Positions 35,265 to 52,076 of a stretch of DNA of 61,064 bases are shown one piece after another. The notes beneath the pieces are model-generated. The model made no database searches. It was not told where the DNA came from and was given only the letters and a program-made list of their open reading frames with translations. Position numbers and translations under genes: made by a program. Position 1 is the first letter of the stretch; each line of letters begins with the position of its first letter. This DNA is from Actinophytocola xinjiangensis (GTDB taxonomy: Bacteria > Actinomycetota > Actinomycetes > Mycobacteriales > Pseudonocardiaceae). Where the stretch lies: the NCBI RefSeq assembly GCF_001921215.1, contig NZ_MSIF01000037.1:1-61064 (forward strand). Direction: 5' to 3'.

Positions 35265-36233
35265 ATGGACAGTGACGACCCTCGTGAGGCGATCGACCAC
35301 GCCCTGCACGCGGCGGTCAGGGCGCCGTCGGTGCACAACACCCAGCCGTGGCGGTTCGTGGTGCGGGGGCCGGTGGTGGAGGTGTGCCTGGACGGGGACC
35401 GGGTGCTGACCGTCGCCGATCCGGACGGGCGGGAGGCGCGGTTGTCCTGTGGGGCGGCCCTGTTGAACCTGCGGGTCGCGTTGCGGGCGGCCGGCCGGGC
35501 CGTGGTGGTCGACCCGTTGCCCGACCCCGCCCACCCCGAGCTTCTCGCCACCGTCCGGGTGGCGGGGCGCCGGCCGGCCACGCCGGCCGAGCGCGATCTC
35601 GCCGACGCCGTCGGCAACCGGACGACCAACCGGCGGCCGTTCGTCGACCGGATCGTGCCGGGGTCGGAACGGAGCGCGCTGGTCGCGGCGGCGGACGCCG
35701 AGGGCGCGCATCTCCTCCTGTTGGACACGCCGCGCGCGTTGGAGACGTTCGCGACGTTGCTGCGCCGGGCCGACCAGCGCCAGGAGGACGACCCGGACTA
35801 CCAGGCCGAGCTCCGGGCCTGGACGACCGGCGACCCGGCCCGGCACGACGGTGTGCCCAGCGCCGCCGGCGGGCCACGGCCGGCCGGCACGCCACTGCTC
35901 AAGCTGCGTGACTACCCGGGCCGGCGCACCGCCGAGCGGGAGTTCGAGCAGGACCCGCTGGTGGCGATGGTGACCACCGCCGGCGACACCGCGCTCGACC
36001 ATCTCCGTGCGGGGCAGGCGATGCAGCGCGCGTTGCTGGTCGCCACCTCCGCCGGGCTCGGGGCGTCGTTCTTCTCCCAGCCGATCGAGCAGCCCGACCT
36101 CCGGGCGGCGCTGCGCACCGGCCTCACCGCCGGGGCGCACCCGCAGGCGGTGCTGCGGATCGGCTACGGCCACCGGGGGGCGCCCACTCCGCGCCGCCCG
36201 GTGGCCGAGGTGACCAGCTACCGCACCGAGTAG
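35265..36233 (+). CDS. Acg-family nitroreductase-like protein
   Basis: A 322-residue protein of the Acg (Rv2032-like) family, which has the nitroreductase fold with two FMN-type halves in one chain. Typical features are AVRAPSVHNTQPWRFVV near the N terminus, GNRTTNRRPF in the middle, and AGLGASFFSQPIE near the end. Mycobacterial Acg is a DosR-regulated protein that seems to sequester FMN rather than reduce nitro compounds. I looked for a DosR-type palindrome upstream and found none. Start ATG at 35265. Convergent with the subtilase gene, overlapping it by 16 bases. Confidence 0.85.
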   Translation: MDSDDPREAIDHALHAAVRAPSVHNTQPWRFVVRGPVVEVCLDGDRVLTVADPDGREARLSCGAALLNLRVALRAAGRAVVVDPLPDPAHPELLATVRVAGRRPATPAERDLADAVGNRTTNRRPFVDRIVPGSERSALVAAADAEGAHLLLLDTPRALETFATLLRRADQRQEDDPDYQAELRAWTTGDPARHDGVPSAAGGPRPAGTPLLKLRDYPGRRTAEREFEQDPLVAMVTTAGDTALDHLRAGQAMQRALLVATSAGLGASFFSQPIEQPDLRAALRTGLTAGAHPQAVLRIGYGHRGAPTPRRPVAEVTSYRTE

Positions 36234-39200
36234 GCGTCGACGAGTGTCTGGGTGACGGTCCTGCCTTCCTGGCCGGTGGCGCTGGCCCGCACCGACACCG
36301 TCTCGCCCGCCCTGGGCAGCGACAGCGACACCACGCCGAACGTGCCGTCGGGCAGCGGGACCACCACCGACGGCACCCAGCGTTCGCCGTGGTCGGTGGA
36401 GGTCCAGAAGCGCAACGTGCCGCGCTCAGCGACGATCGGGCCGGACTGTCCGACCGTTGTGGACAGTCGCACCTGGATGGTGACGGGGTGGCGGGCGCGC
36501 AGCTGGCCGGTCTGGTCGGTGTTCGGTTCGTAGCCGACGTTGAGCAGCTGCGTCGGGTTGTTGAACGGGCCCGACTCCGGCGGCGCCTCCGAGGTGAACG
36601 TCCACGACGTGTCCGCCCGGGTCGCGAAGGGCAGCGTGTCCTGGTCGGGCGTGATGCTGTGCTCCAGCCGGTAGTTCGCCCGTTCCGTCGGCACGTCGAA
36701 GTACCGCGTCGCCCTCGGCGCCACCTCGACGCCCTCGCGGAACAGGCGCAGCGTGATCGGCCCCAACGAGTCGAGTGCCTGGCCGGTGTGCTGGCCGTCG
36801 CTCAGGTCGATGGGCACGTTGAGCGAGCGGCGGCTCTGCTGCACGCCGATCGCCGCCGGCGCCACGCCGGAGAACCACGAGCGCGTGATCCGCTCACCGG
36901 GGCGGAAGCTGTTGCGGTAGGTCCCGAGGTCGACCGGGCCGCGAACCCGTTGGCTCCACAGCACGTCCTCGCGCGCGGTCAGCTTCTCCACCACCTTCGC
37001 CGGGGCGCTCCGCTCGCGCCAGAACCCGAGCGGGGCGCTGACCAGCGGTGTCGCGGCGTAGCGCAGTTCGAGCAGGTCGGCCTGGTCCTGGCGCACCGTG
37101 CGGTAGTCGTGGACCTCGGTGGCCAGCTGCCGCACCTGCCTGGCGTCGAGGTGGAACCGCGGCGGGTCGGGGATGGTCGGCGAGTCCAGCAGCAGCTCGT
37201 AGGCGTCGGCCTGGCCGGGGCGCGGGTGGTCACCGGCGACCAGGCGCCAGTGGGTCTGGAACAGCGACCGGCCGGTGCGCACCGGGTCGGTCGGCTCGAC
37301 GAACACACCGCCGTTCTCGACGTCGGCGCCCGGCGCGTAGATGATGCTGCCGACCGTGCCGTCGTCGACGGCGTCGCGGTGGACGTAGTGCAGGGCAAGG
37401 CGTTGCGTGGTGGTCGACGCACCGGCGACGGTCGCCGGCCGCACCGGCAGCGCGCGGCGCGCGTCGATGGTGAGCGTGACGTCGGAGTCCACCCGCACCT
37501 CGGACTCACCGGCGAGCGAGATCGACGCCGGCTCGTCGCCGTCGGCGGGGGTCTCCACCCGGGCGACGATGCTGAACGCCCCGGGTGCGACCCGCGCGGT
37601 CACCTGGCCGTTCTCGTCGAGCTGGGTGGTGATCAGGCCGCCGCCGTAACGCTGGGTCAGGTCGTCGACGTTGCCCAGCCAGACGGTGCCGCCGGCCCAC
37701 GGCTGGCCCCGGCGGTCCAGCACCGTCAGGTGCACGTCGCGGCGCGGCGCCTCGACGGCGGCGTTGAGCGGCAGCGTGGTGTTCTCCTTGCCGGGCCTGG
37801 CGATCGTGACCAGACCGGCGTAGAGGCCGGGGTTGCCCAGCGTCGGGTCGACGGTGACGGTGACGGTCCCGGTGGCGCCCGGTTCGAGGGTCAACACGCT
37901 CGGCTCGACGACGAACATGTCGTCCGGGGCCTGCTCGTTCCAGTGGTTCTTGGCCGAGTCGGTGAAGGTGAGCGACTCGGTCCCCTCGCCGGTGTTGGTG
38001 ATCGTCACCGGGATGCTCGACGACTGCTGGCCCTCCGGCCAGCGGCGGAACCGGAAGTCGACGGACGCGCGGTCGTAGCTCAGGGTCTCGCCGACGGCGT
38101 CGGTCAGGTCGAGGACGCCGGCGCCCTCGGCGTTGGGCGCGGGGAAGGCGACCTGCGCGTCGGCCGTGGTCATCAGGGTGTTCTTGACCTCGCGCCAGGT
38201 CCAGTCCGGGTGGCGCTGGAGCAGCAGGGCGGCGGCGCCGGCGACGTGCGGGGTGGCCATCGAGGTGCCGGTCATCGCGACGTACGGGTCGCCGCCGCCG
38301 GCGCGGGCGCCGAGGATGTCGACGCCGGGCGCGGTCAGGTCGGGCTTGGCGCGGTAGGTGCCCCGGGTGGGGCCGTTGCCGGAGCCGTACATCGGCAGCA
38401 GGTTGCGCCCGGCGTTGCCGACGGTCAGCGCGCTTTCCGCGACGCCGGGCGAGTCGACGGTGCCCGGCCCCGGCCCGAAGTTGCCGGCCGCGACGACGAA
38501 CAGCGCGCCGGTGCTCTCGGTGAGGTTCTCCAGGGCCTCGACGACCGGGTCGTCGCCCTCGCCGGCGGTGGCGCCGAGGCTGAGGTTGACCACGTCCGCG
38601 CCCTGCGCGGCGGCCCACTCCATGCCGCTGATCACCCACGACTGCTGGCCCCGGCCCTCGTCGTCGAGCACCTTGGCCGACATCAGCCGCGAGTCGAACG
38701 CGACGCCCCGGCGGGCCCCGTCCGCGGCGGCCCCGCTGCCGCCGACGATCGAGGCGACGTGCGTGCCGTGCCCGTGGCCGTCGCCGGCGGTGGCCTCGTC
38801 GGTGAAGTTGACCTCCTCGGCGACCCGGCCGGCGAGGTCCGGGTGGTCGGTGTCCACGCCGGTGTCGAGCACGGCGACGTCGACGCCCGCACCGGTGAGC
38901 CCGCCGTCCCACGCGCCGGGCGCGCCGACCGCGTCGAGGTTCCAGTCCAGCGCGGCGGTGGTGACCGGGCGGTCGAGCCACACCCGGCTCACCCCGGCGG
39001 AGCGGGTACCGAGCGTGCGGGCGAAGCTGGTGGCGCCGCGCTTGGGCAGCTCCACGGCCGTCGCACCGATGCTGGGCAGTTCCTTCGCCGCCCGCAACGT
39101 GCCGACGCCGGGGGCACCGCGCACGATCAGCGGCAGGGCGTCGGTGTGCGCGTCGCCGTAGCCCATCTCCACCAGCGCGGTGACGTTGAACAGGTCCATC

Positions 39201-39514
39201 TCCAGCACGTCCGGCACGAGATGAGCCACCCCGTCCGGGATGACGTAGGCGTCCTCGCCCCGGGTGAACGTGGTGAACGAGGCCGCCGAGTCCTCTCCCC
39301 CGGCCGGCTCGACGACCGTCACCGGACGCCCGCCGGAGGTGTCCACCGTGACCCGGTCCCCGGTGATCAGCGTGACCGCCTCACCGGCGGCGGCCGGCGC
39401 GGCGGCTGGCGGCGGATCCGCCGACGCCGGGCCGAGAGGCACCGCCATCGTCACCGCGGTCGCGAGCACGACGAGAAGGACGGACCGGGGGCGCGGACAT
39501 CTGCGGGACGACAT
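36218..39514 (-). CDS. secreted subtilisin-like serine peptidase (S8), large multidomain
   Basis: A 1098-residue secreted protease. Signal peptide: MSSRRCPRPR then a hydrophobic core and cleavage near PASA-DPP (about residue 33). A prodomain follows. The catalytic triad is Asp217 (VAVLDTGVDTDHPDLAGR), His252 (GHGHGTHVASIVGG) and Ser418 (MTGTSMATPHVAGAAAL). After the peptidase domain come beta-rich domains, including a segment with TITNTGEGTESLTFTDS, of the sort that bind substrate or cell wall. The ATG at 39514 gives the best signal peptide; the frame is open to 39580. This is a nutritional or developmental exoprotease of filamentous actinobacteria. The next gene on this strand lies upstream with its own control. 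Confidence 0.92.
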   Translation of the reverse strand: MSSRRCPRPRSVLLVVLATAVTMAVPLGPASADPPPAAAPAAAGEAVTLITGDRVTVDTSGGRPVTVVEPAGGEDSAASFTTFTRGEDAYVIPDGVAHLVPDVLEMDLFNVTALVEMGYGDAHTDALPLIVRGAPGVGTLRAAKELPSIGATAVELPKRGATSFARTLGTRSAGVSRVWLDRPVTTAALDWNLDAVGAPGAWDGGLTGAGVDVAVLDTGVDTDHPDLAGRVAEEVNFTDEATAGDGHGHGTHVASIVGGSGAAADGARRGVAFDSRLMSAKVLDDEGRGQQSWVISGMEWAAAQGADVVNLSLGATAGEGDDPVVEALENLTESTGALFVVAAGNFGPGPGTVDSPGVAESALTVGNAGRNLLPMYGSGNGPTRGTYRAKPDLTAPGVDILGARAGGGDPYVAMTGTSMATPHVAGAAALLLQRHPDWTWREVKNTLMTTADAQVAFPAPNAEGAGVLDLTDAVGETLSYDRASVDFRFRRWPEGQQSSSIPVTITNTGEGTESLTFTDSAKNHWNEQAPDDMFVVEPSVLTLEPGATGTVTVTVDPTLGNPGLYAGLVTIARPGKENTTLPLNAAVEAPRRDVHLTVLDRRGQPWAGGTVWLGNVDDLTQRYGGGLITTQLDENGQVTARVAPGAFSIVARVETPADGDEPASISLAGESEVRVDSDVTLTIDARRALPVRPATVAGASTTTQRLALHYVHRDAVDDGTVGSIIYAPGADVENGGVFVEPTDPVRTGRSLFQTHWRLVAGDHPRPGQADAYELLLDSPTIPDPPRFHLDARQVRQLATEVHDYRTVRQDQADLLELRYAATPLVSAPLGFWRERSAPAKVVEKLTAREDVLWSQRVRGPVDLGTYRNSFRPGERITRSWFSGVAPAAIGVQQSRRSLNVPIDLSDGQHTGQALDSLGPITLRLFREGVEVAPRATRYFDVPTERANYRLEHSITPDQDTLPFATRADTSWTFTSEAPPESGPFNNPTQLLNVGYEPNTDQTGQLRARHPVTIQVRLSTTVGQSGPIVAERGTLRFWTSTDHGERWVPSVVVPLPDGTFGVVSLSLPRAGETVSVRASATGQEGRTVTQTLVDAYSVR

Positions 39515-39605
39515 GCCACCAACGTCTACCGGCGACATGGTGGTCAGGGGAACGCCCGCGCGGTGGCAACATCTCGCCATGTCCGAAGTACGACACCGGC
39601 GGGTG

Positions 39606-42572
39606 TCACTCGTCGACGGTCACCTGGCTGCCGGCGGGGCGACTCACCGGGATGGCGACGTCACCGGTCGGCAGGTGACGGACCCGGTCGTGGACGGCCG
39701 CCGCGCGGGTGATGTTGCCCATCCTGAGGTAGAGGTCGGCTGCCCGCTTCCAGGCCGAGATGGCGTCCTCGATCTCGCCATCGGCGTGGCACACGGTGCC
39801 GAGCGCGACCAGCGCGGGTGCCTCGACCACCTGATCACGGGTCTGCTCGCAGATGTCGAGCGCGACCCGGATGGTTCCGCGGGCATTAGCGGTGCGGCCC
39901 TGGGCGATGTCGAGTTCGGCGAGGGCGAGACACGCGCGCGCCGTTTCCCTCTGGTCCGGGATTCCTTCCGCGACACCGCGCGCCCGGGCCAGGTGCGACG
40001 CGGCCAGTGCGTGGTCGCCGCGCACGGTGTGCAGGATCCCGAACTCGATCAGAATCGCGGCATGCGCCGACTGCTCCCGGATGCGCAGGGCGATTCTCCT
40101 GGCCTCGTCCAGCCGGACGAACGCCTCGTCGTGCTGATCGTTGGCCGCGAGCACCGTGGCGATTCTGTAGTGGTACCAACACCTTCCCTCATCGTCGTTA
40201 TTCTCCTCCACGAGAGCCATTCCCTGGCGCCACCAGTTCATCGCGGCCGCGGTGTCTCCCCGCACCATCTCCAGTTTGCCGAGATGGATGAGCGCGGCGG
40301 ACCGTCCACGTGGGACATCGTGTTCGATGGCCAGCCGCAGGGCTTCCTCCAGTGTCCGTCGGGCGTCGACCACCTCACCCAGGGTCAGCTTGGTCATGGC
40401 GGAGCCGAGCAACGACGAGGTCAGATCCTCGTGATCCCCGGTCAGCGTCGTGACCCGCACGGTCAGGTCCCTGATCCGAAGACTGTCCTCGTGGGCGCCG
40501 AACCGGTCGCAGAACGTCGCCACCGGGTCGCCGAGCCGGTAGGTGTACCGGCGGAGGTCGACGTCGGACGCGGAGAAGACGATGGCCGCGAGGAGGTTGT
40601 TCCGCTCGCGCAGGAACCACTCCCGGGCGTGCACGTTGTCCACGAACGCCACCGGGTGCTGATCGATCTCCGCCGAGCCCGGCGGCCGCAGATAGGTCGA
40701 GTAGGCGAGGCACGCGGCGTCGGTCACCGCCGCCAGGTAGAAGCGCAGCATGCGTTCGACCGTCGCGTGCCGGTCGGCCGGCTCGTCGGTCTCGGCGCAG
40801 TAGACGGCGAACTCCGCCAGCAGGTCGTGCAGCCGGTAGCGACCAACCACCGGCTGTTCGACGAGGTGCGCCTCGATCAGTTTCGCCAGGCTTCGGTTGG
40901 TGTCCAGCATGGTCCGACCGTCACCGGCGGCGGCCGCCTCGATACTGATGTCGGGACCCGGATGCAGTCCGATCACCCGGAACAGGCGGCGTTCCGGCTC
41001 GTCGAGCGAGTCGTAGGACTGGGCGAACAGCGCGCCGACGTTGACGGTGCCGTCCTGGTCACCGAGGTCGACGACCAGCCGCCGTCGCGTGAGCTGATCG
41101 GCGACCTCGGCGATCGGCCCGTCAGGACAGGTCGCCGCGAAGGCGGTGGCGACACTGATCGCCACCGGCAGGCCGCTACAGCGCTCGACCAGACCGGCAC
41201 GGTCGGCCGCGTCGAGTTCCCGGTGGGGGCCAAGCTGGGTGATGAGCAGTTCGTCCGCGTCGGACGGTGTCATCGCGCGGACGGTGATCCGGCGCGCGCC
41301 CACGGTGGTTCCCAGTGAGGTCAACCGCCGGCGGCTCGTGATGACGACCAGAGCACCCGCCAGTCTCGGCAGGAGATCGCGGACATGGTCGTTGTCGCGC
41401 ACATTGTCCAAAATCACCAGAGTATCTCGTTCACCCAGCAGCCGGGACAACAGAAACGTCCGCTCCTGAGGACTCCCGTCCGGCCGGTGTCCACATGCGA
41501 TGATGAAATCATCCACGACCTGAGCGGGATCGACAATTGTCCTGTCCGAGTAACCACTGAGATTCGCCACGAGGACACCACCAGGGAACCGGTCGCGGAC
41601 CCGGTGTCCCCAATGGACCACCAGTGCGGTCTTGCCGATACCGGCCGGCCCGGCGACGATCACCACTCCCCTGGCCGGTTCGCCCGTGCGTGGTGTGGTC
41701 AGTGAGTGCAGCCGTTCGAGCGGTTCGGCTTGGCCGACGAAGTCGACGTCCTGTGGAAGCAGGTCGGGCGCCACCCGTTCCGGCGGTCGGGAACCGTTGT
41801 GGCGCACCACGATCGGCGAGGTCGGGAGGGTGCTCCCGCGCAGCAGGTCGTGCTGGCGCAGCAGTTCGTCGGCGGCGTCGATCTCGTCGTTGTCGAGCAG
41901 TGCGCGCCGCACGGCCTGCACGTAGCCCATGGCGTCGCGCTGCCGGCCGACGACGTAGAGCGCCTTGATGCGGTGCACCGCGAGCCGGTAGTGCCGGTGG
42001 TGGTCGAACGGGAGATCGTCCAGCCGGCGCAGGACGTCCTGACTCCTGCCCAGACCGTCGAGCGCGCGCAGCAGCACGTCGTAGGCCGGTGCCCACAGGT
42101 CGGCGTCGGCGATCGATCTGCGGTGTTCGGCCGGGTGTCCCAGCAGGTCCGCGAACGGACGGCTCGTCCACAACCGCACGGCGCGCTCCAGCAGTTCGCC
42201 GGCCTGCTCGTACTCCCCGGCCTGGACCAGTTCCTCACCGCGCCTGACGGCGTCCTGCAGCCACCAGTAGTCGACCTCGTCGCGTTCGACGTCCAGTCGC
42301 AGCATGCCGTTGCGCCAGCGCAGGTCGGGAACCGGATCCAGCTGGTCCAGGCCTTCCCTGGCGAGTTGGGCATACCGCTGGACGGTGTCCGGGTTCACCC
42401 GCCCGATGCCGGGCCACACCCACCGGATGACCGTCTCCAACGACACCTCCTGCCCCGGGTGCAGCAGCAGGACCGCGAGGAGCCCTCGTGGTTTGGGTCG
42501 TTGCCAATCAAGGTTGAAATTGTCTCGAACGCGTAACGACGTCGGACCGAGAATGCAGAATCTGTATCCCAC
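39606..42572 (-). CDS. AfsR/SARP-family regulator with NB-ARC and TPR domains
   Basis: A 988-residue AfsR-like activator. Residues 1-90 are an OmpR-type winged helix (RFCILGPTSLRV...LLHPGQEVSLETVIRWVWPG), 100-250 the bacterial transcriptional activator (BTAD) domain, about 300-560 an NB-ARC ATPase (Walker A VAGPAGIGKTALVV near 310; TLVILDNVRD), and 680-960 TPR-like repeats. These regulators bind direct repeats 11 bp apart and recruit RNA polymerase to secondary-metabolite genes. Exactly such repeats lie in the gap between this gene and the divergent peptide/ThiF genes. GTG start at 42572. It is the likely pathway-specific activator of the 42.9-44.1 kb RiPP-like pair. Confidence 0.92.
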   Translation of the reverse strand: MGYRFCILGPTSLRVRDNFNLDWQRPKPRGLLAVLLLHPGQEVSLETVIRWVWPGIGRVNPDTVQRYAQLAREGLDQLDPVPDLRWRNGMLRLDVERDEVDYWWLQDAVRRGEELVQAGEYEQAGELLERAVRLWTSRPFADLLGHPAEHRRSIADADLWAPAYDVLLRALDGLGRSQDVLRRLDDLPFDHHRHYRLAVHRIKALYVVGRQRDAMGYVQAVRRALLDNDEIDAADELLRQHDLLRGSTLPTSPIVVRHNGSRPPERVAPDLLPQDVDFVGQAEPLERLHSLTTPRTGEPARGVVIVAGPAGIGKTALVVHWGHRVRDRFPGGVLVANLSGYSDRTIVDPAQVVDDFIIACGHRPDGSPQERTFLLSRLLGERDTLVILDNVRDNDHVRDLLPRLAGALVVITSRRRLTSLGTTVGARRITVRAMTPSDADELLITQLGPHRELDAADRAGLVERCSGLPVAISVATAFAATCPDGPIAEVADQLTRRRLVVDLGDQDGTVNVGALFAQSYDSLDEPERRLFRVIGLHPGPDISIEAAAAGDGRTMLDTNRSLAKLIEAHLVEQPVVGRYRLHDLLAEFAVYCAETDEPADRHATVERMLRFYLAAVTDAACLAYSTYLRPPGSAEIDQHPVAFVDNVHAREWFLRERNNLLAAIVFSASDVDLRRYTYRLGDPVATFCDRFGAHEDSLRIRDLTVRVTTLTGDHEDLTSSLLGSAMTKLTLGEVVDARRTLEEALRLAIEHDVPRGRSAALIHLGKLEMVRGDTAAAMNWWRQGMALVEENNDDEGRCWYHYRIATVLAANDQHDEAFVRLDEARRIALRIREQSAHAAILIEFGILHTVRGDHALAASHLARARGVAEGIPDQRETARACLALAELDIAQGRTANARGTIRVALDICEQTRDQVVEAPALVALGTVCHADGEIEDAISAWKRAADLYLRMGNITRAAAVHDRVRHLPTGDVAIPVSRPAGSQVTVDE

Positions 42573-42777
42573 CAGCGTGCCCTTCGCTGGAGACCATCCC
42601 CGACAAGATGAGAGTGTGCGGGCATTTCGGTCGACCGATCCAGCGCACTCATCTTTCGAAATCGTTCCGTTATCGTTGACGAGAAAGCGATCTTCTCAAT
42701 GCGCGTGCAGATGCTCGTGCGATGTCCAGGAAGTGTCCTGTTCATGTCCACCCACCGCCGCCGCCCGCCGGACACAC

Positions 42778-42821
42778 TGTCGGGATTCTGTCGGGATATC
42801 CGCCGGATTTCGTCCGGCTCG
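42778..42821 (+). promoter_or_regulatory. 11-bp-pitch direct repeats, probable SARP binding site
   Basis: TGTCGGGATTC (42778-42788) and TGTCGGGATAT (42789-42799) are adjacent direct repeats, then CCGCCGGATTT (42800-42810) and CGTCCGGCTCG (42811-42821) continue in the same 11-base register with more changes. This is a heptamer plus 4-base spacer array, the form of SARP/AfsR operators. It lies in the 311-base gap between the SARP gene and the small peptide gene, ending 62 bases before the peptide start. Confidence 0.65.
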
Positions 42822-42883
42822 GTGGGAGACGCTGGACACCGTCGGCCAGCGGGGGCCGGCGAAACGGGAGGGGGTGACCGGTA

Positions 42884-42949
42884 ATGATCCACTTCGATGA
42901 CTCCGACCAGCGGATGATGTTCTGCTCCGACAAGGAACAGAGCTCGTAA
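42884..42949 (+). CDS. 21-residue peptide, putative precursor for the ThiF-like enzyme
   Basis: A short ORF with a strong GGGAGGGGG ribosome-binding site about ten bases before its ATG, and a TAA stop 36 bases before the ThiF-like gene. The peptide begins MIHFDD, carries MMFC around residues 11-14 (single Cys14) and ends KEQSS. It is acidic and polar with no signal sequence. Its position directly before an E1-like enzyme that carries a peptide-recognition domain is just the layout of microcin C-type systems (short MccA peptide, MccB enzyme). Unlike MccA it ends in Ser rather than Asn. It is too short for ordinary gene callers. Function as a substrate is inference from context. Confidence 0.55.
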   Translation: MIHFDDSDQRMMFCSDKEQSS

Positions 42950-42985
42950 CCCGATGAGTGCGTGACGAGGTGCGGGGAGGTTTCC

Positions 42986-44116
42986 ATGTTTCGCCCGAGG
43001 ATCAAGTGGGAGCACCGGCCGGTGAGGCTGGGCGAGGACCAGGTTCAGATCGGCGGCAACGTGCCCGGGATCAGGGCCCGGATCGAGGACCCGACCGGAT
43101 GGGTGTGGGCGTTGGTGGAAACCCTCGACGGTAGGAGGACGGTGGACCAGGTCGTCGCCGAGCTGGTCCACCGTTTCCCCGACAGGTCCGAGACCGAGGT
43201 CCGCTCCGAGGTCGTCCGGGACCTCGGACTGTTGGCGGGAGCGGGCTACGTCGAGGACGCGGCCGAGCCCGTTCCCCGGACACTGTCCGGCCGGGAGCGG
43301 GAACGGTACAGCCGCGCCCACGCGATGTGGCGATGGATGACCCGCGATTCCCGGCGATCGAGCTGGGACACTCAGCTGTCGTTGCGGCAGGCACGGATCG
43401 CCGTGGTCGGGATCGGCGGCACCGGCAGCACCGCCGCGCTGGGCCTGGTCCTGTCCGGTGTCGGTCACGTGCACTGCGTCGAGCCCGACGTGGTGGAACT
43501 GTCGAACCTGAGCCGGCAGGTGCTCTACACCGAGCGGGATCTCGGCCAGCGGAAGGTCGACGTGGCGCTGCATCGGCTGCGCGAACACAACTCCGACGTC
43601 GTCGTCACCGGTGAGGCGGTAACCGTGCGGGGGCCAGGTGATCTGGCGACGCTCGCGGCCCGCTTCGACGTGGTGGTGCTCGCGGCCGACCAGCCACCCG
43701 AGATCCGGTCCTGGACGAACCAGGCCTGCCTGGGGACCGGCACCGCGTGGGTGCACGGCGGCTACCACGGTCCCCAGATCAACGTCGGCCTGTACCGTCC
43801 GGGCGGGGGCGCCTGCTACGACTGCGCGTGCGCCGCGGAGCGCGAGCGCCTGGCCACACTGCCACCGCGCACGCCGGCCACCGCCACGACCGGACCGCTG
43901 ACCCAGGCGGGCAATGCCGTGTCCGCCGGAATCTCCGGTCACCTCACCGCGCACGCCGCCATGAGCCTGATCACCGGAAGTCCCCGGCTTCCGGCCAACC
44001 GCGAGTACGCGCTGAACCTGGTCACGCTCGACGCCGGCACCGTGCTGGCCCTTGACGTGCCGCGGCCCGACTGCCCGGCCTGCGGCGGGTCAACGACCAT
44101 CGGCCACCAACTCTGA
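42986..44116 (+). CDS. ThiF/E1-like adenylyltransferase with N-terminal PqqD-like peptide-recognition domain (MccB-like)
   Basis: A 376-residue protein. Residues 1-95 have the pattern of a RiPP recognition element (IGGNVPGIRARIEDPTGWVW, then LETLDGRRTVDQVVAELVHR), used to bind leader peptides. Residues 130-376 are an E1/MoeB/ThiF adenylation domain: nucleotide loop VVGIGGTGS (140-148), VEPDVVELSNLSRQVLYTER, and a zinc site from Cys277/Cys280 (CYDCAC) and Cys363/Cys366 (CPAC). Such enzymes activate a peptide C terminus or side chain as an acyl-adenylate, as in MccB (microcin C) and PaaA (pantocin). The ATG at 42986 follows GGGGAGG. It makes a two-gene unit with the 21-codon ORF. Its end overlaps the convergent STAND gene by 27 bases. 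Confidence 0.82.
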   Translation: MFRPRIKWEHRPVRLGEDQVQIGGNVPGIRARIEDPTGWVWALVETLDGRRTVDQVVAELVHRFPDRSETEVRSEVVRDLGLLAGAGYVEDAAEPVPRTLSGRERERYSRAHAMWRWMTRDSRRSSWDTQLSLRQARIAVVGIGGTGSTAALGLVLSGVGHVHCVEPDVVELSNLSRQVLYTERDLGQRKVDVALHRLREHNSDVVVTGEAVTVRGPGDLATLAARFDVVVLAADQPPEIRSWTNQACLGTGTAWVHGGYHGPQINVGLYRPGGGACYDCACAAERERLATLPPRTPATATTGPLTQAGNAVSAGISGHLTAHAAMSLITGSPRLPANREYALNLVTLDAGTVLALDVPRPDCPACGGSTTIGHQL

Positions 44117-46222
44117 GAGTCTTCGCCGTACCTGGTCCAGGCGCGGATCCTCCAGGTCGACGAGGAGGACCTCCGCCGCACGCAACGCCGCCAACTCCGA
44201 CGACCGGTCCTGTTGGTGTTCCAGTGAGACCGCCAGTGCCAGCACCGCCTGCACCCGATCGGCGCCCGTGTACCCGATGGTCTCGTAGGATTCGATCGCC
44301 TGCCGGAGAAGGGAAATCGCGGCCTCGTGTTGGCCAAGCCCTTGCCGGGCAAGGGCGATGTCACACAGCGCGCCGGCCTCACCGATCTGGTCTCCGGCCT
44401 GGCTCCGCAGGTCCAGTTCCCGTACGGCATGGCCCAACGCGATCTCGTACTCGCCGAGTTCCACGGAGATGGCACTGAGATGACACAGGGCCACCGCCTC
44501 CGCCCGTAGCTGTCCCACGCCTCGGGCGATCTCCGCCACCCGTTGGTACACCGTCCTGGCGTCCTCCGGTCTGCGCTGGCCGCGCCGAACCCAGCCCAGG
44601 CCCGACAGTCCGGAGATCCGGCGTGCGGTGTCGTCCAGTTGTTCGGCGAGGGCGATGGTCCGCGTGGCGGTCGCCTCGGCGTCGTCCCAGCTGCCCAGGC
44701 GGCACAGGGTGTCTGTCCGCATGCTCAGCACAAGCGCTTCCACCGCCTGGTCGTCGAGTGCCCGCGCCGACCGCGCACCCAACTCGGTGGCCGTCAGGTG
44801 AAGCGCGGACCACGCCCTACCGCCGGTGGTCAGGAACCGGCACGACACGGCGAGCGCCGTCACCAGTTCGTGCAGCCCGGCCGTGGCCGCCGCCCGCGTC
44901 ACGGCCACCAGGTTGGCGCGTTCGGTCCGCAGCCAGGCCTGAGCCTGGTCGCGATCGGCGAAGGAGGTCTCCACTCCCACCGGTGGTACGGCGGCCGGGG
45001 AGACGCCGGCCAACGGGGGGAAGAGCATGCCGTCCGCGCGCTGGGCGGCACCGGCGTACCAGGCGAGCGTCCGTTCGGTCGCGGCCCGGCGAACGTCCGG
45101 GGTGTCGTCGATCTCCACCCGGTGGGCCGCATAGTTCCGGATGACGTCGTGCATCTGGTACCGCCGCCTGGTGCCGGGTTGGACCAGGCGCAGGTCCGCC
45201 AGTACCTCCAGACAGCGGTAGGCCTCGGACGGGGTCAGGCCGGCGAGCGTGGCGGCGGCGTCGACGTCGAGTTCGCCACCGGGGTGCAGCCCGAAGCGTC
45301 GGAACACCGTCGCCTGCTGGTCGGTCAGCTGCCGATAGGTCCAGTCGAACACCGACCGCACCGCGAAGGTCACCCCGTCGTCCTCCTCCAGTCGATCCCC
45401 GTCGTCGCTGATCTCGGCGACCACGTCCCCGATTCCCACGTGTGGCCGGGCGGCGGCCCGGGTCGCCGCGACCCGCACGGCCAGCGGGAGTCCGCCGCAG
45501 AGGGCGAGCAGTTCGGCCACGGCGTGCAGTTCGTCGTCGATCCGCTCCGTTCCGACGATTCCGCGCAGCAGGTCCTCGGACTCCTCGGTGGTGAACACGT
45601 CCAGGCTCACCCGACGGGCCGCCTCCGTGATCACCAGACTGGTCAGGCCACCGCGACCGGTGACCACGGCCATGCATCCCGGCGCACTGGGCAGCAGCGG
45701 CCGAACCTGCTCGGCGTTCGCGGCGTTGTCCAGGACCACCAGCACCCGGCGTTGCGCGAGCAGCGACCGGTACAGCCCGATCCGGGCCTCGAACTCGATC
45801 GGCACCTGTGCCTCGGTCGTGCCCAGGGCCGGTAAGAACAGCGCGAGCACCACGGCGGGGTCCAGGGGCTCGCTCGGCCCGGAGCCACGCAGGTTGACGA
45901 ACAGCGTTCCGCCCTGGAACCGGTGCTGCGCGCGGTGCGCCCACTGCACGGCGAGAGTGGTCTTGCCTGCTCCGCCGACACCGTGCACCACGGCGACCAT
46001 CACCTTGGCCGGAGGGTCTCCGACCTCGGACAACAGGCCGTCCAGCACCGTCATTTCGCGCTGGCGCCCGGTGAAGTCCGGGAGCGGCGGTGGCAGTTGC
46101 CGGGGTACCGGCACGTCCGGCCCCGCGTGCGCGGGGAGGACGACCTGCTGGATCGTCCCGGCCTGGATCACATTTCCCGTGACCCGGCCACTGATCGCAT
46201 TCCTGCTCTGCTCCCGCTCCAT
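44090..46222 (-). CDS. STAND-family NB-ARC/TPR protein with N-terminal amyloid-like motif
   Basis: A 710-residue NLR-like protein. Residues 8-24 read NAISGRVTGNVIQAGTI, a G-x-V-x-G-x-V-x-Q-A-G-x-I pattern like the RHIM-type motifs predicted to mediate amyloid signalling in bacterial NLR-like proteins. Then an NB-ARC ATPase (Walker A VHGVGGAGKTTLAVQW near 79-95; RVLVVLDNAAN), a winged-helix region ending YQMHDVIRNYAAHRVE, and TPR-like repeats to the end. Unlike the SARP at 42.6 kb it has no DNA-binding domain. It could sense stress or invasion, or serve the adjacent ThiF system; an effector with a matching motif is not found beside it. I use the ATG at 46222; the frame is open to 46276. Confidence 0.85.
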   Translation of the reverse strand: MEREQSRNAISGRVTGNVIQAGTIQQVVLPAHAGPDVPVPRQLPPPLPDFTGRQREMTVLDGLLSEVGDPPAKVMVAVVHGVGGAGKTTLAVQWAHRAQHRFQGGTLFVNLRGSGPSEPLDPAVVLALFLPALGTTEAQVPIEFEARIGLYRSLLAQRRVLVVLDNAANAEQVRPLLPSAPGCMAVVTGRGGLTSLVITEAARRVSLDVFTTEESEDLLRGIVGTERIDDELHAVAELLALCGGLPLAVRVAATRAAARPHVGIGDVVAEISDDGDRLEEDDGVTFAVRSVFDWTYRQLTDQQATVFRRFGLHPGGELDVDAAATLAGLTPSEAYRCLEVLADLRLVQPGTRRRYQMHDVIRNYAAHRVEIDDTPDVRRAATERTLAWYAGAAQRADGMLFPPLAGVSPAAVPPVGVETSFADRDQAQAWLRTERANLVAVTRAAATAGLHELVTALAVSCRFLTTGGRAWSALHLTATELGARSARALDDQAVEALVLSMRTDTLCRLGSWDDAEATATRTIALAEQLDDTARRISGLSGLGWVRRGQRRPEDARTVYQRVAEIARGVGQLRAEAVALCHLSAISVELGEYEIALGHAVRELDLRSQAGDQIGEAGALCDIALARQGLGQHEAAISLLRQAIESYETIGYTGADRVQAVLALAVSLEHQQDRSSELAALRAAEVLLVDLEDPRLDQVRRRLSELVADGR

Positions 46223-46654
46223 CGATCCAGTCTGTTGCCGTACGATGAAGGTCGCAACATTCAAACGGCGGAACATCCGGAATCCCCCGACCGTGGTGAG
46301 TCTTCCACCACAGGCAAAGATCTACAGCCCGGCGGTCACCGACTTCTCCCGATGACGGATCCATTGCCGATCGTCCAAGGAACGATCTTGACCGACCCGC
46401 CTTCCGGTGCCCGTTTCACCGCCCCACCACGGTTGATCGTCGACAGGTCACCGCCGCGTCGCCGTCGTCGTGACCGCCCGTCGAGGCGTTTCGGGAAGCT
46501 CTGAATGCCCACAGGGACGTCATTGCCCGATATTCTGGAACCATTTATCGAGAGGTCATGGCAAACGTTTCCAAAATAGCGGGTCAGGACCACGTCCGCC
46601 ATTCGGGACCATCACTGATCGTATGATCACTTTCGACGATTGCTCTCATTTCTT

Positions 46655-47762: not shown

Positions 47763-47799
47763 GTTAGCGGTGCTGGGGCGAGGGTGAAGGGACGTGGTG

Positions 47800-50349
47800 A
47801 TGGCGCGCGGGTTCCAGGGTGCGGTCCTGCGGGGCTTCGGCGCACGAGATCACGACGCGACCGTGGTGGAGACACTGCGGCTCGCGCCGAACCTGGTACG
47901 GGTACGGCTGCACTCGGCGACCCTGTTCTCCGAGATCGTCGTGGAGCCGACCGCCTGGCTGCGGTTCTGGTTCCCCGACCCCGGCGGCACCGACACCGAG
48001 TTCCAGCGCGCCTACACCATCAGCGAGCACGACGCGCCCACCAGGCGCTTCGCCATCGACGTCGTGCTGCACGAGCCCGCCGGCCCGGCGTCGCAGTGGG
48101 CGGTCGAGGTCCAGTCGGGGGCCACGGTCAGCGTGACCTCCCTCGGCTCGGACCGCTTCGCCCTGCCCGAGGAGCTGCCCGCCGGCTACCTGCTGGTCGG
48201 CGACTCGGCGTCGACGCCGGCGATCAACGCGATCCTCGACGTCGTCCCCGCCGACCTGCCCGTCGAGCTGTACCTGGAACTGCACGAGGAGGCCGACCGC
48301 CAGCTCCCGCTCACCCCACACCCCCGGCTGCGCGTGCACTGGGTGCCGCGCGGTGACGGGCGGGAGCTCGCGGCGGCCATCGAGACCCGCGACTGGTCGG
48401 ACTGGCACGCCTGGGCCGCCCCCGAGTCGACCACGCTCAAACACGTGCGCGCCCGCCTGCGCGACGAGTTCGGCTTCCCCAAGACCGAGGTGCACGCCCG
48501 CGCCTACTGGATCCAGGGCCGGTCCATGGGCAAACTGCGCGACGACACCAACGACCCCGCCGGGAAACCGGCGGCCGTGCCCAAACCCGTCAAGCCCAAG
48601 GAGAAGGCGGCCGGGGCGTGGCGCTCGCAGGCCGCCGGGCGGCTGCTGGCCCCGCTCAGGCGCACGCTGGTCGCCGCCGGGGTGGGTCAGGCGCTGGTCA
48701 CCCTGCTCCAGCTCGCGCCGTTCGTGCTGCTGGTCGAGCTGGCCCGGCTGCTGGTGGCCGGCGCGCAACCCGCCCGGCTGTGGACGGTCGGCGGGTGGGC
48801 GCTGGGCCTGCTCGGCGCGGGCGCGGTGCTCGGCTCGGCGCTGCTGCTGTGGCTGCACGTGGTCGACGCGCGGTTCGAACGCGACCTGCGGGTGCGGCTG
48901 CTGGACAAGCTCGCCCGCGTCCCGCTCGGCTGGTTCACCGGCCGGGGCTCCGGCTCGGTCACCAAGCTCGTGCGCGACGACACCCTGTCGCTGCACTACC
49001 TGGTCACCCACGCGGTACCGGACGCGGTCGGCGCGGTCGTCGCGCCGGTGGCGGTGCTGGTGTACCTGTTCGCCGTGGACTGGCGGCTGGCGCTGGTGCT
49101 GTTCGTGCCGGTGCTGGTCCACCTGGTGACCATGGCGGTCATGGTCGTGCGGTCCGGGCAGAAGATCGGTCAGGCGCACCGCTGGGCGGAGCGGATGAGC
49201 GGCGAGGCCGCCGCCTACCTGGAGGGCCAGCCGGTGATCCGCGTGTTCGGCGGCGCGGCGGCCTCGACGTTCCGGCGCGACCTCGACGAGTACGTCGGCT
49301 TCCTCGCCGCCTGGCAACGGCCGTTCACCGGCATGAAGACCGTCATGGACCTCGTCACCCGGCCGATGACCTTCCTGTGGCTGATCGCCGCCGCCGGCAC
49401 GCCACTGGTCGTCTCGGGCGCCATGCCGGCCCTGGACCTGCTGCCGTTCCTGCTGCTGGGCACCACGTTCGGCGCGCGGCTGCTGGGCATCGGCTATGGC
49501 ATGGGCGGCATCCGCGACGGCGTCCAGGCCGCCCGCCACCTCAGCGTCGCGCTCGGCGAACGGGAGCTCGCGGTACGCGAGTCGCCGCCCGAGGACAGCC
49601 CGCCGGGGCGGGTCGAGTTCGCCGGCGTGACCTTCGGGTACCGGCCGAACACGCCGGTCGTGCGGGACATCGACCTGACGCTCGAACCGGGCACGGTGAC
49701 CGCGCTGGTCGGGCCGTCCGGGTCGGGCAAGTCAACGCTGGCCGCACTGCTCGCCCGCTTCCACGACGTCGACGCCGGCACCATCCGCGTCGGCGGGCAC
49801 GACGTCGCCTCGCTGACCGCCGACGAGCTGTACGCGCTGGTCGGGTTCGTCTTCCAGGACGCGCAGGTCGTGCACGGCACGGTCCGGGACAACATCGCGC
49901 TGGCCGTGCCGGACGCGACCCTGCCCGAGGTGATGGCCGCCGCGCAGGCCGCCCAGCTGCACCAGCGGATCCTGCGGATGCCGGCCGGCTACGACACCGT
50001 GCTCGACGGCGGCACCGGCCTGTCCGGCGGCGAGCGGCAACGCCTCACGATCGCCAGGGCGATCCTGGCCGACGCGCCGGTGCTGATCCTCGACGAGGCC
50101 ACCGCCTTCGCCGACCCCGAGTCGGAGTACCAGGTGCAGCGGGCGCTGAGCACGCTGGCCAGGGACCGCACGGTGCTGGTCGTGGCGCACCGGCTGACCA
50201 CGATCACCGGCGCCGACCGGATCGTGGTGCTCGACGACGGGCGGATCGCCGAGACCGGCACGCACGAACAACTGCTCGCCGCCAACGGGCGCTACCACCG
50301 GCTGTGGGAGTCCCGGGCCGCCGCCCCCACGGAAGGGGCCCTGCGATGA
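47800..50349 (+). CDS. irtA: IrtA-like siderophore importer: SIP flavin domain fused to ABC transporter half
   Basis: An 849-residue fusion. Residues 1-260 are a siderophore-interacting FAD-binding reductase domain ([54 protein letters not shown]). A Pro/Lys-rich linker (about 250-270) leads to a six-helix ABC exporter-fold membrane domain and a nucleotide-binding domain with Walker [11 protein letters not shown], signature LSGGERQR and Walker B LILDEATA. This is the layout of mycobacterial IrtA, which with IrtB imports ferric siderophores and reduces the iron on the cytosolic side. The ATG at 47800 is preferred; GTG at 47794 is in frame. Overlaps irtB by ATGA. Iron box upstream. Confidence 0.92.
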
Positions 50350-52076
50350 TCCGCACCTACCTGCGGCTGATCCCCGCCGACCGGCGCGGCCGGGTCGTCG
50401 CGTACACCGTGCTCACGGTGGTCTCGGTGCTGCTGCGGGCGGCCGGGGCGGTGCTGCTGGTCCCGTTGGTGGGCGCCCTGTTCGGGGCGACACCGGGCGA
50501 CGCGTTCGGCTGGCTGGGCGCGCTCACCGGGGTCACCGTCGCCGGCTGGGCGGTCGACGCGGTCACCGCCAGGATCGGGTTCGACCTCGGGTTCGCCGTG
50601 CTGGACACCGTGCAGCGCGACCTCGCGGCACGCCTGACCCGCGTCCGGCTGACCTGGTTCACCTCGGACAACACCGCGACCGCGCGGCAGGCGGTGGCCG
50701 CGACCGGCCCGGACCTGGTCGGTCTGGTGGTCAACCTGCTCACCCCGCTGTTCGGCGCGGTGCTGGCGCCGGCGGCGATCGCGGTGGCGCTGCTGTTCGT
50801 GTCGCCGGTGCTGGGGCTGGCGGCGCTGGCCGGGGTGCCGCTGCTGCTGGGCGCGCTGTGGGCGGCCGGGCGGGTCGCGCGCACCGCCGACGAGGCGGCG
50901 GCCAGGGCCAACAACGCGCTGACCGAACGGATCGTGGAGTTCGCCAGGACCCAGCAGGCGTTGCGGGCCGCGCGCCGGGTGGCGGCCACCCGCAGCAGCG
51001 CCGGGGCGGCGCTGGCCGTGCAGCACAGCGCGACGCTGCGCCTGGTGCTCATGCAGATCCCGGGGCAGCTGCTGTTCAGCGTGGTCAGCCAGGTCGCGCT
51101 GATCGGCCTGGCCGGCACGACCGCGCTGCTGGCCGTCGACGGGACGCTGCCGGCGGCCGAGGCGGTCGCGCTGATCGTGGTGATCGCCCGGTACCTGGAG
51201 CCGATCACCACGCTCGGCGAGCTCGCGCCCGCGCTCGGCTCGATCCGCGCGACCGTCGAGAACATCCGCGCGGTGCTCGACGCGCCGGTCGTCGGCTCGG
51301 GCACCACGCCCAGGGCCGCCGCCACGGCGCCACGCATCGAGTTGGACGGGGTGAGCTTCGCCCACGGCGAGGACGACCCGGTGCTGGAGAACCTCACGCT
51401 GCGGCTGGAACCCGGCACGACGACCGCGATCGTCGGCCCGTCGGGCGCCGGCAAGAGCACGGTCCTCGCGCTGATCGCCGGCCTGCACCAGCCGGTGCGC
51501 GGGCGGGTGCTGGTCGACGGGGTGGACGCGGCGACGCTCGACGCCGGTGCCCGCCAGGCACTGACCAGCGTCGTGTTCCAGCACCCGTACCTGTTCGACG
51601 GGACGGTGCGGGACAACGTGCTCGCCGGCCACCCGTCGGCCGGCGAGCACGAGTACGCCACGGCGCTGCGCCTGGCGCGGGTCGACGAGATCACCGCCCG
51701 CCTGCCCGAGGGCGACCGCACGGTCACCGGTGAGGCCGGCACGGCGCTGTCCGGCGGCGAGCGGCAGCGGGTGAGCATCGCCCGTGCGCTGCTCAAACCC
51801 GCACCGGTGCTGCTCATCGACGAGGCGACCAGCGCGCTGGACACGGAGAACGAGACCGCCGTCGTCCAGGCCATCGCCGACGATCCGGTGGCGCGGACCA
51901 GGGTGATCGTGGCCCACCGGCTGACCAGCATCGCCCACGCCGACCGGGTGCTGTTCCTCGACGGCGGCCGCGTCGTGGAGGACGGCACCCCGGCGCGGCT
52001 GCGCGACGCGGGCGGCCGCTTCGCCGAGTTCTGGCGTCAGCAACAGGAAGCGGCCACCTGGCACGTCACCGCCTGA
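50346..52076 (+). CDS. irtB: IrtB-like ABC transporter half
   Basis: A 576-residue ABC protein with an N-terminal six-helix exporter-fold domain and a C-terminal ATPase: Walker [11 protein letters not shown], signature LSGGERQRV, Walker [13 protein letters not shown]-loop VAHRLTS. It is translationally coupled to irtA (ATGA overlap) and should form the IrtA-IrtB heterodimer for ferric-siderophore import. The 3' end overlaps the convergent PPOX-family gene by 11 bases. Confidence 0.92.

Follow-up and report, generated by a model that had tools for sequence, protein, structure and literature searches.

A precursor-like peptide, an RRE-E1 enzyme and a convergent NLR-like STAND gene form a candidate three-gene module in Actinophytocola xinjiangensis

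Peptide-modifying enzymes that join a RiPP recognition element (RRE) to an E1-like adenylating domain have been described for antibiotics and for RiPPs (ribosomally synthesized and post-translationally modified peptides) of streptococci. We analyzed a 61,064-nucleotide (nt) stretch of DNA from the actinobacterium Actinophytocola xinjiangensis (RefSeq assembly GCF_001921215.1, contig NZ_MSIF01000037.1, positions 1 to 61,064; C31 in our contig numbering), here called the window, in which a 21-codon open reading frame (ORF) precedes an RRE-E1 gene. An earlier reading of the sequence alone had proposed a minimal RiPP-like system of these two genes. Conservation of the peptide, the RRE and intact adenylation residues support that pair, and an NLR-like STAND gene, which the earlier reading had not linked to it, is a well-supported third partner. 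We propose a three-gene module in which a precursor of ~20 amino acids is modified by the RRE-E1 enzyme and an NLR-like receptor probably responds to the product, a reading to which we assign a probability of about 0.5.

Several described systems resemble the chemical side of this module. In the pantocin A system (PaaP/PaaA), as here, a short precursor gene adjoins the enzyme gene, and PaaA is the closest solved structure to our enzyme by sequence; the window peptide, however, has no Glu-Glu-Asn core, and its locus has an NLR-like partner. No PaaB- or PaaC-like genes were recognized on reading the recurring neighbor clusters, a reading that involved no PaaB/PaaC profile. Microcin C (MccA/MccB) likewise pairs a peptide with an RRE-E1 enzyme, and MccB is the best structural match to ours, but the 21-residue precursor here ends in Ser and Asn is last in only 11 of 53 relatives. 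The GRC, enterofaecin, and Ind systems use RRE-ThiF enzymes (GrcB, EnfB, and IndF) for ATP-driven formation of rings at the precursor C terminus, and the EnfA precursor has 21 amino acids (PMC12250964). In GRC peptides the C-terminal Cys is linked to a Glu four residues before it, whereas in the window peptide seven residues follow Cys14; WWIVI and NWYFI cores of the enterofaecin/Ind kind are missing from our peptide table, where Cys is internal; and those systems are streptococcal or enterococcal, whereas ours is actinobacterial, with no recurring radical SAM, protease, or transporter gene seen by reading. The window peptide had been described as unlike any known precursor, and it indeed lacks pantocin, microcin C, GRC, enterofaecin, and Ind cores; because these defining cores are absent, we rejected membership in each of these families. 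The AgrD/AgrB autoinducing peptides carry a Cys-to-C-terminus thiolactone and are exported; they resemble the (thio)lactone proposed below, but the enzyme class is unrelated and export is not indicated here.

The module side also has a counterpart. Peptide-processing systems of FxSxx, RxD, and acidic types are coupled to AP-ATPase/TPR proteins, and a peptide toxin or signal has been proposed for them (Kaur et al., PMC7159879). These systems and ours share a short peptide, a modifying enzyme, an NB-ARC/TPR protein, and actinobacterial hosts, with the coupling present in 39 of 39 of our loci that have this peptide type, but theirs use a metallopeptidase and a radical-SAM enzyme where ours use an RRE-E1 enzyme. 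On reading the recurring clusters, in which not every neighbor was profiled, we recognized no zincin metallopeptidase or radical-SAM/SPASM protein, and the main text of PMC7159879 does not contain the terms E1-like, adenylating, or RiPP. Among the open-access papers found by our literature searches and judged by title and abstract, none tied an RRE-ThiF peptide to an NLR or presented an E1-based version of such a peptide system with an NLR-like gene. The chemistry and the module each resemble known systems. Peptides of ~20 residues are easily missed by gene callers, and a survey of RRE-ThiF clusters sought a precursor, proteases, and a transporter in them (PMC12150305); loci like these could therefore have been passed over by those criteria.

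The peptide and its RRE-E1 enzyme

Relatives were sought in overlapping genome sets that included the source genome. Enzyme matches occurred in 13 of 150 related genomes (E ≤ 1e-60), 22 of 397 genomes of the order (E ≤ 1e-70), 45 of 390 of the family (E ≤ 1e-100), and 10 of 394 of the class (E ≤ 1e-70), a patchy distribution suggesting an accessory trait. The 9.5-Mb source genome holds three further matches (58% on C67, 36% on C8, and 33%, partial, on C45). Named genome contigs yielded twelve loci, of which one, the weak partial match L029, was dropped; from the longer match lists a part of the loci was fetched, and de-duplication left 85 distinct loci.

Multiple observations support the peptide as a genuine partner of the enzyme. 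First, the coordinates confirm that a 21-codon ORF with a strong ribosome-binding site precedes the E1 gene, with 36 nt between its end and the ATG of the enzyme, as the sequence-only reading had stated. Second, a peptide of this kind was present in 53 of the 56 loci with at least 48.4% tblastn identity to the enzyme, window included, with its start 65–111 nt upstream of the enzyme match, so that the outcome named in advance as damaging, a lack of conservation in relatives that keep the ThiF gene, did not materialize. The three loci where we found no such peptide were L100, L039, and L133, and none was seen in the reading frames of L037, which at 48.37% lies just under the identity line and outside the peptide table. 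Third, a hidden Markov model (HMM) built from the 52 other peptides placed the window ORF at the top of 777 small ORFs taken from either strand of the window (14.2 bits; next, 5.5), as did an HMM from the four closest relatives (9.8 bits; next, 1.5). Fourth, peptide coding DNA was 80–90% identical in five groups of loci, compared with 28–67% for the DNA 20–80 nt upstream; in two further pairs the upstream DNA was itself 87–95% identical, and these were uninformative. Uncorrected pN/pS was 0.26, 0.73, 0.56, 0.42, 0.26, and 0.52 per group and rose to 1.74 in a single pair that shows 4 differences. Finally, ATG, GTG, or TTG stood at the aligned start of 49 of the 53 peptides (in L134 an ATG lies three codons upstream), and a Shine-Dalgarno-like string, by a loose pattern, lay within 18 nt upstream of 47. 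The nearest relatives of MIHFDDSDQRMMFCSDKEQSS are VIEFVEYEQRMTFCSKDSS, VIEFVEYEQRMTFCSKDGA, VIEFLEFEQQMTFCTKSDG, and VIEFIEFEQRMAFCNKQSN. At L022 there is a second, diverged tandem precursor, MIEFDEVDWQVTCNGSGTS, at −292 to −232 relative to the E1 gene (17.1 bits).

Several points weigh on the other side. In the 53-row peptide table, 18 entries were picked by eye from the reading frames, and the other 35 were taken as the top-scoring HMM match exceeding a permissive threshold of 0.9 bits. With a more stringent HMM, trained on nine peptides, the window ORF scored 3.8 bits, below the best (7.8) of 10,432 control small ORFs drawn from the same loci; 14 of 44 untrained loci scored above every control with this model and 30 did not. 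L026, L137, and L099 have no ATG, GTG, or TTG within three codons of the aligned start. The ORF might also be a leader or attenuator of the E1 gene whose product has no role, as its shortness and its place directly upstream of that gene would allow, but the conservation of amino acids, the rule of a small last residue, the RRE of the enzyme, the second copy in L022, and the change of peptide type with regulator partner (see below) make this explanation barely credible. On balance, the peptide-enzyme pairing is well supported, and we hold with high confidence that the pair is genuine.

The enzyme belongs with PaaA and MccB. Pfam found ThiF (1.2e-40) and PaaA-like_N (30.5 bits; cut-off, 27), with PqqD under its cut-off (20.5 against 23.4). 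A sequence search of the PDB returned PaaA first (E 3e-27, residues 3–207) and MccB next, and the AlphaFold2 model (mean predicted local distance difference test score, pLDDT, 85.9) matched MccB best in Foldseek (E 1e-23, 374 columns, template-modeling score 0.73, root-mean-square deviation 5.5), with PaaA at 3e-21. The earlier suggestion that the first 95 residues look like a PqqD-type recognition domain is supported for the recognition domain itself, which is of the PaaA/MccB kind; PaaA-like_N and the Foldseek match to MccB place the domain within the RRE fold, contrary to the possibility that it would fall outside. Gly142, Gly144, Gly145, Gly147, Asp168, Arg177, Lys190, and Asp235 were invariant in 21 aligned enzymes, as were the zinc cysteines of two CxxC pairs (277/280 and 363/366). 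The Arg177–Lys190 and Lys190–Asp235 spacings (13 and 45) are the same as those of Arg167, Lys180, and Asp225 in EnfB (PMC12250964). Judged from sequence and model, this is very likely an active adenylating, peptide-modifying enzyme, and the pair probably adds another reaction to those of the E1 class. An alternative GTG start at 42962 is possible, and most relatives align from the M-x-RPRIK start.

Table 1. Positions and supporting evidence for features of the window
Feature	Position	Strand	Basis
21-aa precursor-like peptide MIHFDDSDQRMMFCSDKEQSS	42884..42949	+	ATG start; N terminus strand-like (IxF); Cys14 as candidate nucleophile; last residue, Ser21, small
Ribosome-binding site of peptide, GGGAGGGGGTG	42866..42876	+	sequence
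RRE-E1 (ThiF-like) adenylating enzyme, 376 aa	42986..44116	+	Pfam, PDB sequence match, alignment, model
N-terminal RiPP recognition element, ~residues 1–95	42986..43270	+	PaaA-like_N at residues 24–62; PaaA alignment from residue 3; model
Ribosome-binding site of E1 gene, GGGGAGG	42974..42980	+	sequence
NLR-like STAND gene: N-terminal motif, NB-ARC with GGAGKTT and MHD, TPR array	44090..46276 (likely start 46222)	-	Pfam, model, reading
N-terminal motif NAISGRVTGNVIQAGTIQQVVL of NLR-like protein, candidate BASS/RHIM-like beta motif	46124..46216	-	reading, model
SARP/AfsR-like regulator (BTAD, NB-ARC, TPR), divergent	39606..42572	-	Pfam
Two sets of direct repeats, 11-bp period, possible SARP boxes	42722-42750 and 42777-42797	.	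shuffle test; not general across loci

The convergent NLR-like gene and its counterpart in type B loci

The NLR-like gene is convergent to the E1 gene, and the ends of the two overlap by 27 nt. Its 728-residue product (probably 710 residues) has Pfam NB-ARC and TPR domains, with the Walker A and MHD motifs present, and has no DNA-binding domain over Pfam cut-off (HTH_IclR reached 18.6 bits against 22, at the place of the STAND winged helix). The model (pLDDT 84.8, N terminus poorly predicted) was nearest to a solved STAND-TPR protein and then to Apaf-1, plant NLRs, and peptide-binding TPR arrays.

Three lines of evidence tie this gene to the pair. First, among loci with a peptide other than type B (a sister type described below), 39 of 39 had an NLR homologue at a distance of 0.9–6 kb downstream, compared with none of the 14 type B loci; of the 32 remaining related ThiF loci, 1 had an NLR-like gene, or 1 of 46 when type B loci are counted too. 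By gene-caller count the homologue was convergent in 35 of 53 loci and on the same strand in 3, to which tblastn adds L135. The paralogous pair on C67 of the source genome also has an NLR; genome-wide there are 44 NB-ARC matches in 9.5 Mb. Second, when the window NLR was compared with 26 genomes, the 14 best matches (itself included, 43–100% identity) all lay beside these ThiF genes; matches without known ThiF linkage started at rank 15 (42%), and a few of lower rank reached 43–46%. Third, ThiF and NLR distances correlated over 38 loci (r 0.76), a value that none of 2000 permutations equaled.

Set against this evidence are a comparison locus, L045/L170, with an NLR-like match (34%) 3.5 kb downstream; the coverage of the comparison loci, 23 of 32 of which were extended to longer flanks and one of which, L152, was covered for only 1.4 kb; agreement of ThiF and NLR nearest neighbors in only 20 of 38 loci; and the fact that genome kinship alone also yields correlated ThiF and NLR distances. 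We nevertheless hold with high confidence that the module with the NLR is genuine.

A sister type bears on what the partner is tied to. The 14 type B loci form one clade on the ThiF tree and have peptides resembling MIEIVMVER...HVY[SC]xDN, and all 14 have an XRE-DUF5753-like gene in the same convergent place (13 by clustering, the 14th by reading; Pfam was run on the regulator of L087 only). The partner changes with the peptide type, and therefore the peptide, not the enzyme alone, is tied to the regulator; because type B is one clade, however, the swap may have been a single event. With peptide pair and NLR together in 39 of 39 loci compared with 1 of 46 others, the peptide is a concrete, testable candidate for an NLR-sensed ligand, and our results suggest that these soil actinobacteria may produce a small modified peptide with an NLR-like receptor as its intracellular target.

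The N terminus of the NLR-like protein carries a motif, V.N.(I)SG.V.G.VVQAG.I.QVVL, that forms two short strands, at low confidence, in the model. By reading, other ATPase-like proteins of the source genome carry the motif close to their N terminus, the one on C71 at an NB-ARC match, and an unlinked 111-residue protein of that genome (C2:90240-90572; L146/L148) has a C terminus, NQITGTVSGKVVQARDIQGGISF, that resembles it. In three close relatives of the window locus, L090, L102, and L101, a homologous small protein ending in NQVSGQVGGNVVQARDI(Q/H)GGI(S/T)F adjoins the NLR gene on the same strand. These features recall the BASS/BELL amyloid signalosomes, in which the N-terminal motif of an NLR is shared with the C terminus of an effector (PMC7889193): here, too, a short N-terminal motif precedes the NLR core and, in three loci, a similar C-terminal motif lies on an adjoining small protein. 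They differ in that the NLR here is tied to a peptide/E1 pair and the motif is likened by layout rather than by a BASS profile. No Pfam model scored over cut-off for the small protein, and it is for this reason that the label BELL-like rests on layout. An adjoining small effector-like protein was found in only 3 of 85 loci, with the window not among them, which counts against the reading proposed here. In L081 (4847-7693), an N-terminal PNP_UDP_1 domain (5.6e-21) replaces the short motif of the NLR homologue, and PNP_UDP_1 is among the domains of conflict systems (PMC7159879).

Proposed chemistry and ligand role

At the N terminus of the aligned peptides, column 5 is Ile, Val, or Leu in 53 of 53 peptides, column 6 is Glu in 41, and column 7 is Phe or Ile in 50. 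One internal position is Cys in 27, Ser in 25, and Thr in 1, with no Ala or Gly (the position in L081 was set by hand; the column as aligned reads 26/26/1), and Phe or Tyr precedes it in 44 of 53 aligned rows. The last residue is Ser in 17, Gly in 16, Asn in 11, Ala in 8, and Thr in 1; for comparison, 45% of 359 neighboring proteins predicted by a crude gene caller end in one of these five residues. The internal position lies 4–9 residues from the end (Cys14 to Ser21 in the window). On a quick ThiF tree, Ser and Cys exchanged at least 14 times by fewest changes, and interchange of Ser and Cys without Ala or Gly is expected of a nucleophile. What is conserved is thus the Ser/Cys, mostly after Phe or Tyr, and the small last residue, in place of the MMFC and KEQ residues that the sequence-only reading had singled out.

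Which carboxylate the enzyme activates, and with it the chemistry, we infer from these patterns. The strand-like N terminus of the peptide (IEF/IxF) would bind the RRE, and the E1 domain, whose active site is intact, would adenylate a carboxylate, most likely the C-terminal one because the last residue is always small; we lean toward such C-terminal activation. The conserved Ser or Cys could then attack; water would be lost and a macrolactone or thiolactone formed at the C terminus, and we give this (thio)lactone an even chance. Ind chemistry offers a precedent, as IndF activates a C-terminal carboxylate with an internal side chain as nucleophile (PMC12150305). The product had earlier been imagined as a modified peptide with an adenylated or otherwise activated C terminus or side chain; the conserved Ser/Cys would suit ring closure within the peptide better than a C terminus left free and adenylated.

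Two features of the alignment tell against a C-terminal ring: its size would vary (4–9 residues), and acids occur before the nucleophile, after it, or both in every peptide, so that a side-chain acid is possible. Moreover, conservation of the Ser/Cys could serve recognition. In the corresponding alternative, the same pair would activate an Asp or Glu side chain, with attack by the Ser/Cys or a backbone nitrogen giving a side-chain thiolactone or ester or a pantocin-like bicycle. GrcB makes a Glu-Cys thiolactone (PMC12250964), PaaA, the best PDB sequence relative, acts on Glu, and every peptide has an acid on at least one side of the Ser/Cys; no acidic column is invariant, however (acids are absent beyond the nucleophile in 12 of 53 peptides and from the 8 residues preceding it in 3 of 53), and the window peptide has no Glu-Glu pair. 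We judge side-chain activation unlikely. The small last residues and the E1 fold would also suit tagging, in which the enzyme would join the peptide C terminus to a protein such as the NLR as a miniature ubiquitin-like mark, and the PADLOC E1-E2 models match the enzyme, albeit in its ThiF domain only (best 4.4e-14; the PADLOC TPR model matches the STAND proteins). Tagging would leave the invariant Ser/Cys unexplained, the RRE points to peptide processing, and no E2 or ligase was seen by reading among recurring neighbors; we consider it highly improbable.

For the proposed C-terminal (thio)lactone, an intracellular role is proposed because no protease or transporter was seen among the recurring neighbor clusters (assigned by reading, most without a profile) and no signal-peptide-like sequence was found. 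From the pattern of co-occurrence, the product may act on the linked regulator, the NLR here and the XRE-DUF5753 protein in type B, and we put a ligand or regulator role toward the NLR at slightly less than even odds. The NLR would then relay the signal through its N-terminal motif, in some strains perhaps to the small protein with a similar motif. In its fullest form, the proposal is that a ribosomal, E1-cyclized peptide, closed as a C-terminal (thio)lactone, serves as a dedicated endogenous ligand for the NLR, which it would arm, hold off, or trigger. The N-terminal motif of the NLR would in turn recruit a cell-death-type effector by amyloid-like templating, making a RiPP-controlled, inflammasome-like switch with a sister version built on an XRE-DUF5753 receptor. 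As a whole, this picture is doubtful.

Neighboring genes and distant relatives

A SARP-like regulator is divergent from the peptide gene, and direct repeats lie between the two in a layout like that of SARP operators. In the window, L020, and L028, three-copy repeats of 11-bp period exceeded every one of 100 shuffles; repeats in two copies arose in few shuffles (1–2 of 100) for the window, L091, L092, and L094, and other loci were unremarkable. In 19 of 53 loci, the 4.5 kb upstream contained a homologue of the SARP-like regulator or of the NLR. The divergent regulator and its repeats, like the MccA-MccB and pantocin layouts, would suit a small antibiotic-like RiPP that acts on other bacteria, with the STAND gene merely regulating expression or giving immunity. 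No transporter, protease, or immunity gene was seen, however, among the neighbor clusters of A-type loci, which were read rather than profiled in most cases; the NLR has no DNA-binding domain over the Pfam cut-off; and the L081 relative carries its N-terminal PNP_UDP_1 domain. An antibiotic role is, in our assessment, quite unlikely.

Some genes of the window were considered as accessory functions and set aside. A subtilase (36218-39580) was rejected as a dedicated protease, and ABC genes at 47.8–52.1 kb were rejected as a dedicated exporter, in each case because they fall outside the recurring neighbor clusters. Judged by sequence, the ABC genes (47794-52076) comprise an ABC transporter carrying a fused siderophore-interacting domain and, after it, a second ABC half; we take them to be IrtAB-like and probably unrelated. 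Azoline formation of the YcaO type was dismissed, as no YcaO was noticed.

A third related ThiF gene in the source genome (C8:187631-188641; L003/L172) is preceded by a reading frame, VTIEVRKVESVKSTQHPDS, and has a divergent NB-ARC gene. Genes for nSTAND1-WD40 proteins lie upstream of two loci (L086:2692-6636 and L028:5543-9151), and modules may therefore sit among STAND genes. The more distant ThiF genes of L014, L040-L044, L072, and L073 are preceded by longer precursor-like ORFs with an RKLEKLETT-like motif, and the ORFs at L040-L044 end in PGCRND(V/L)CG.

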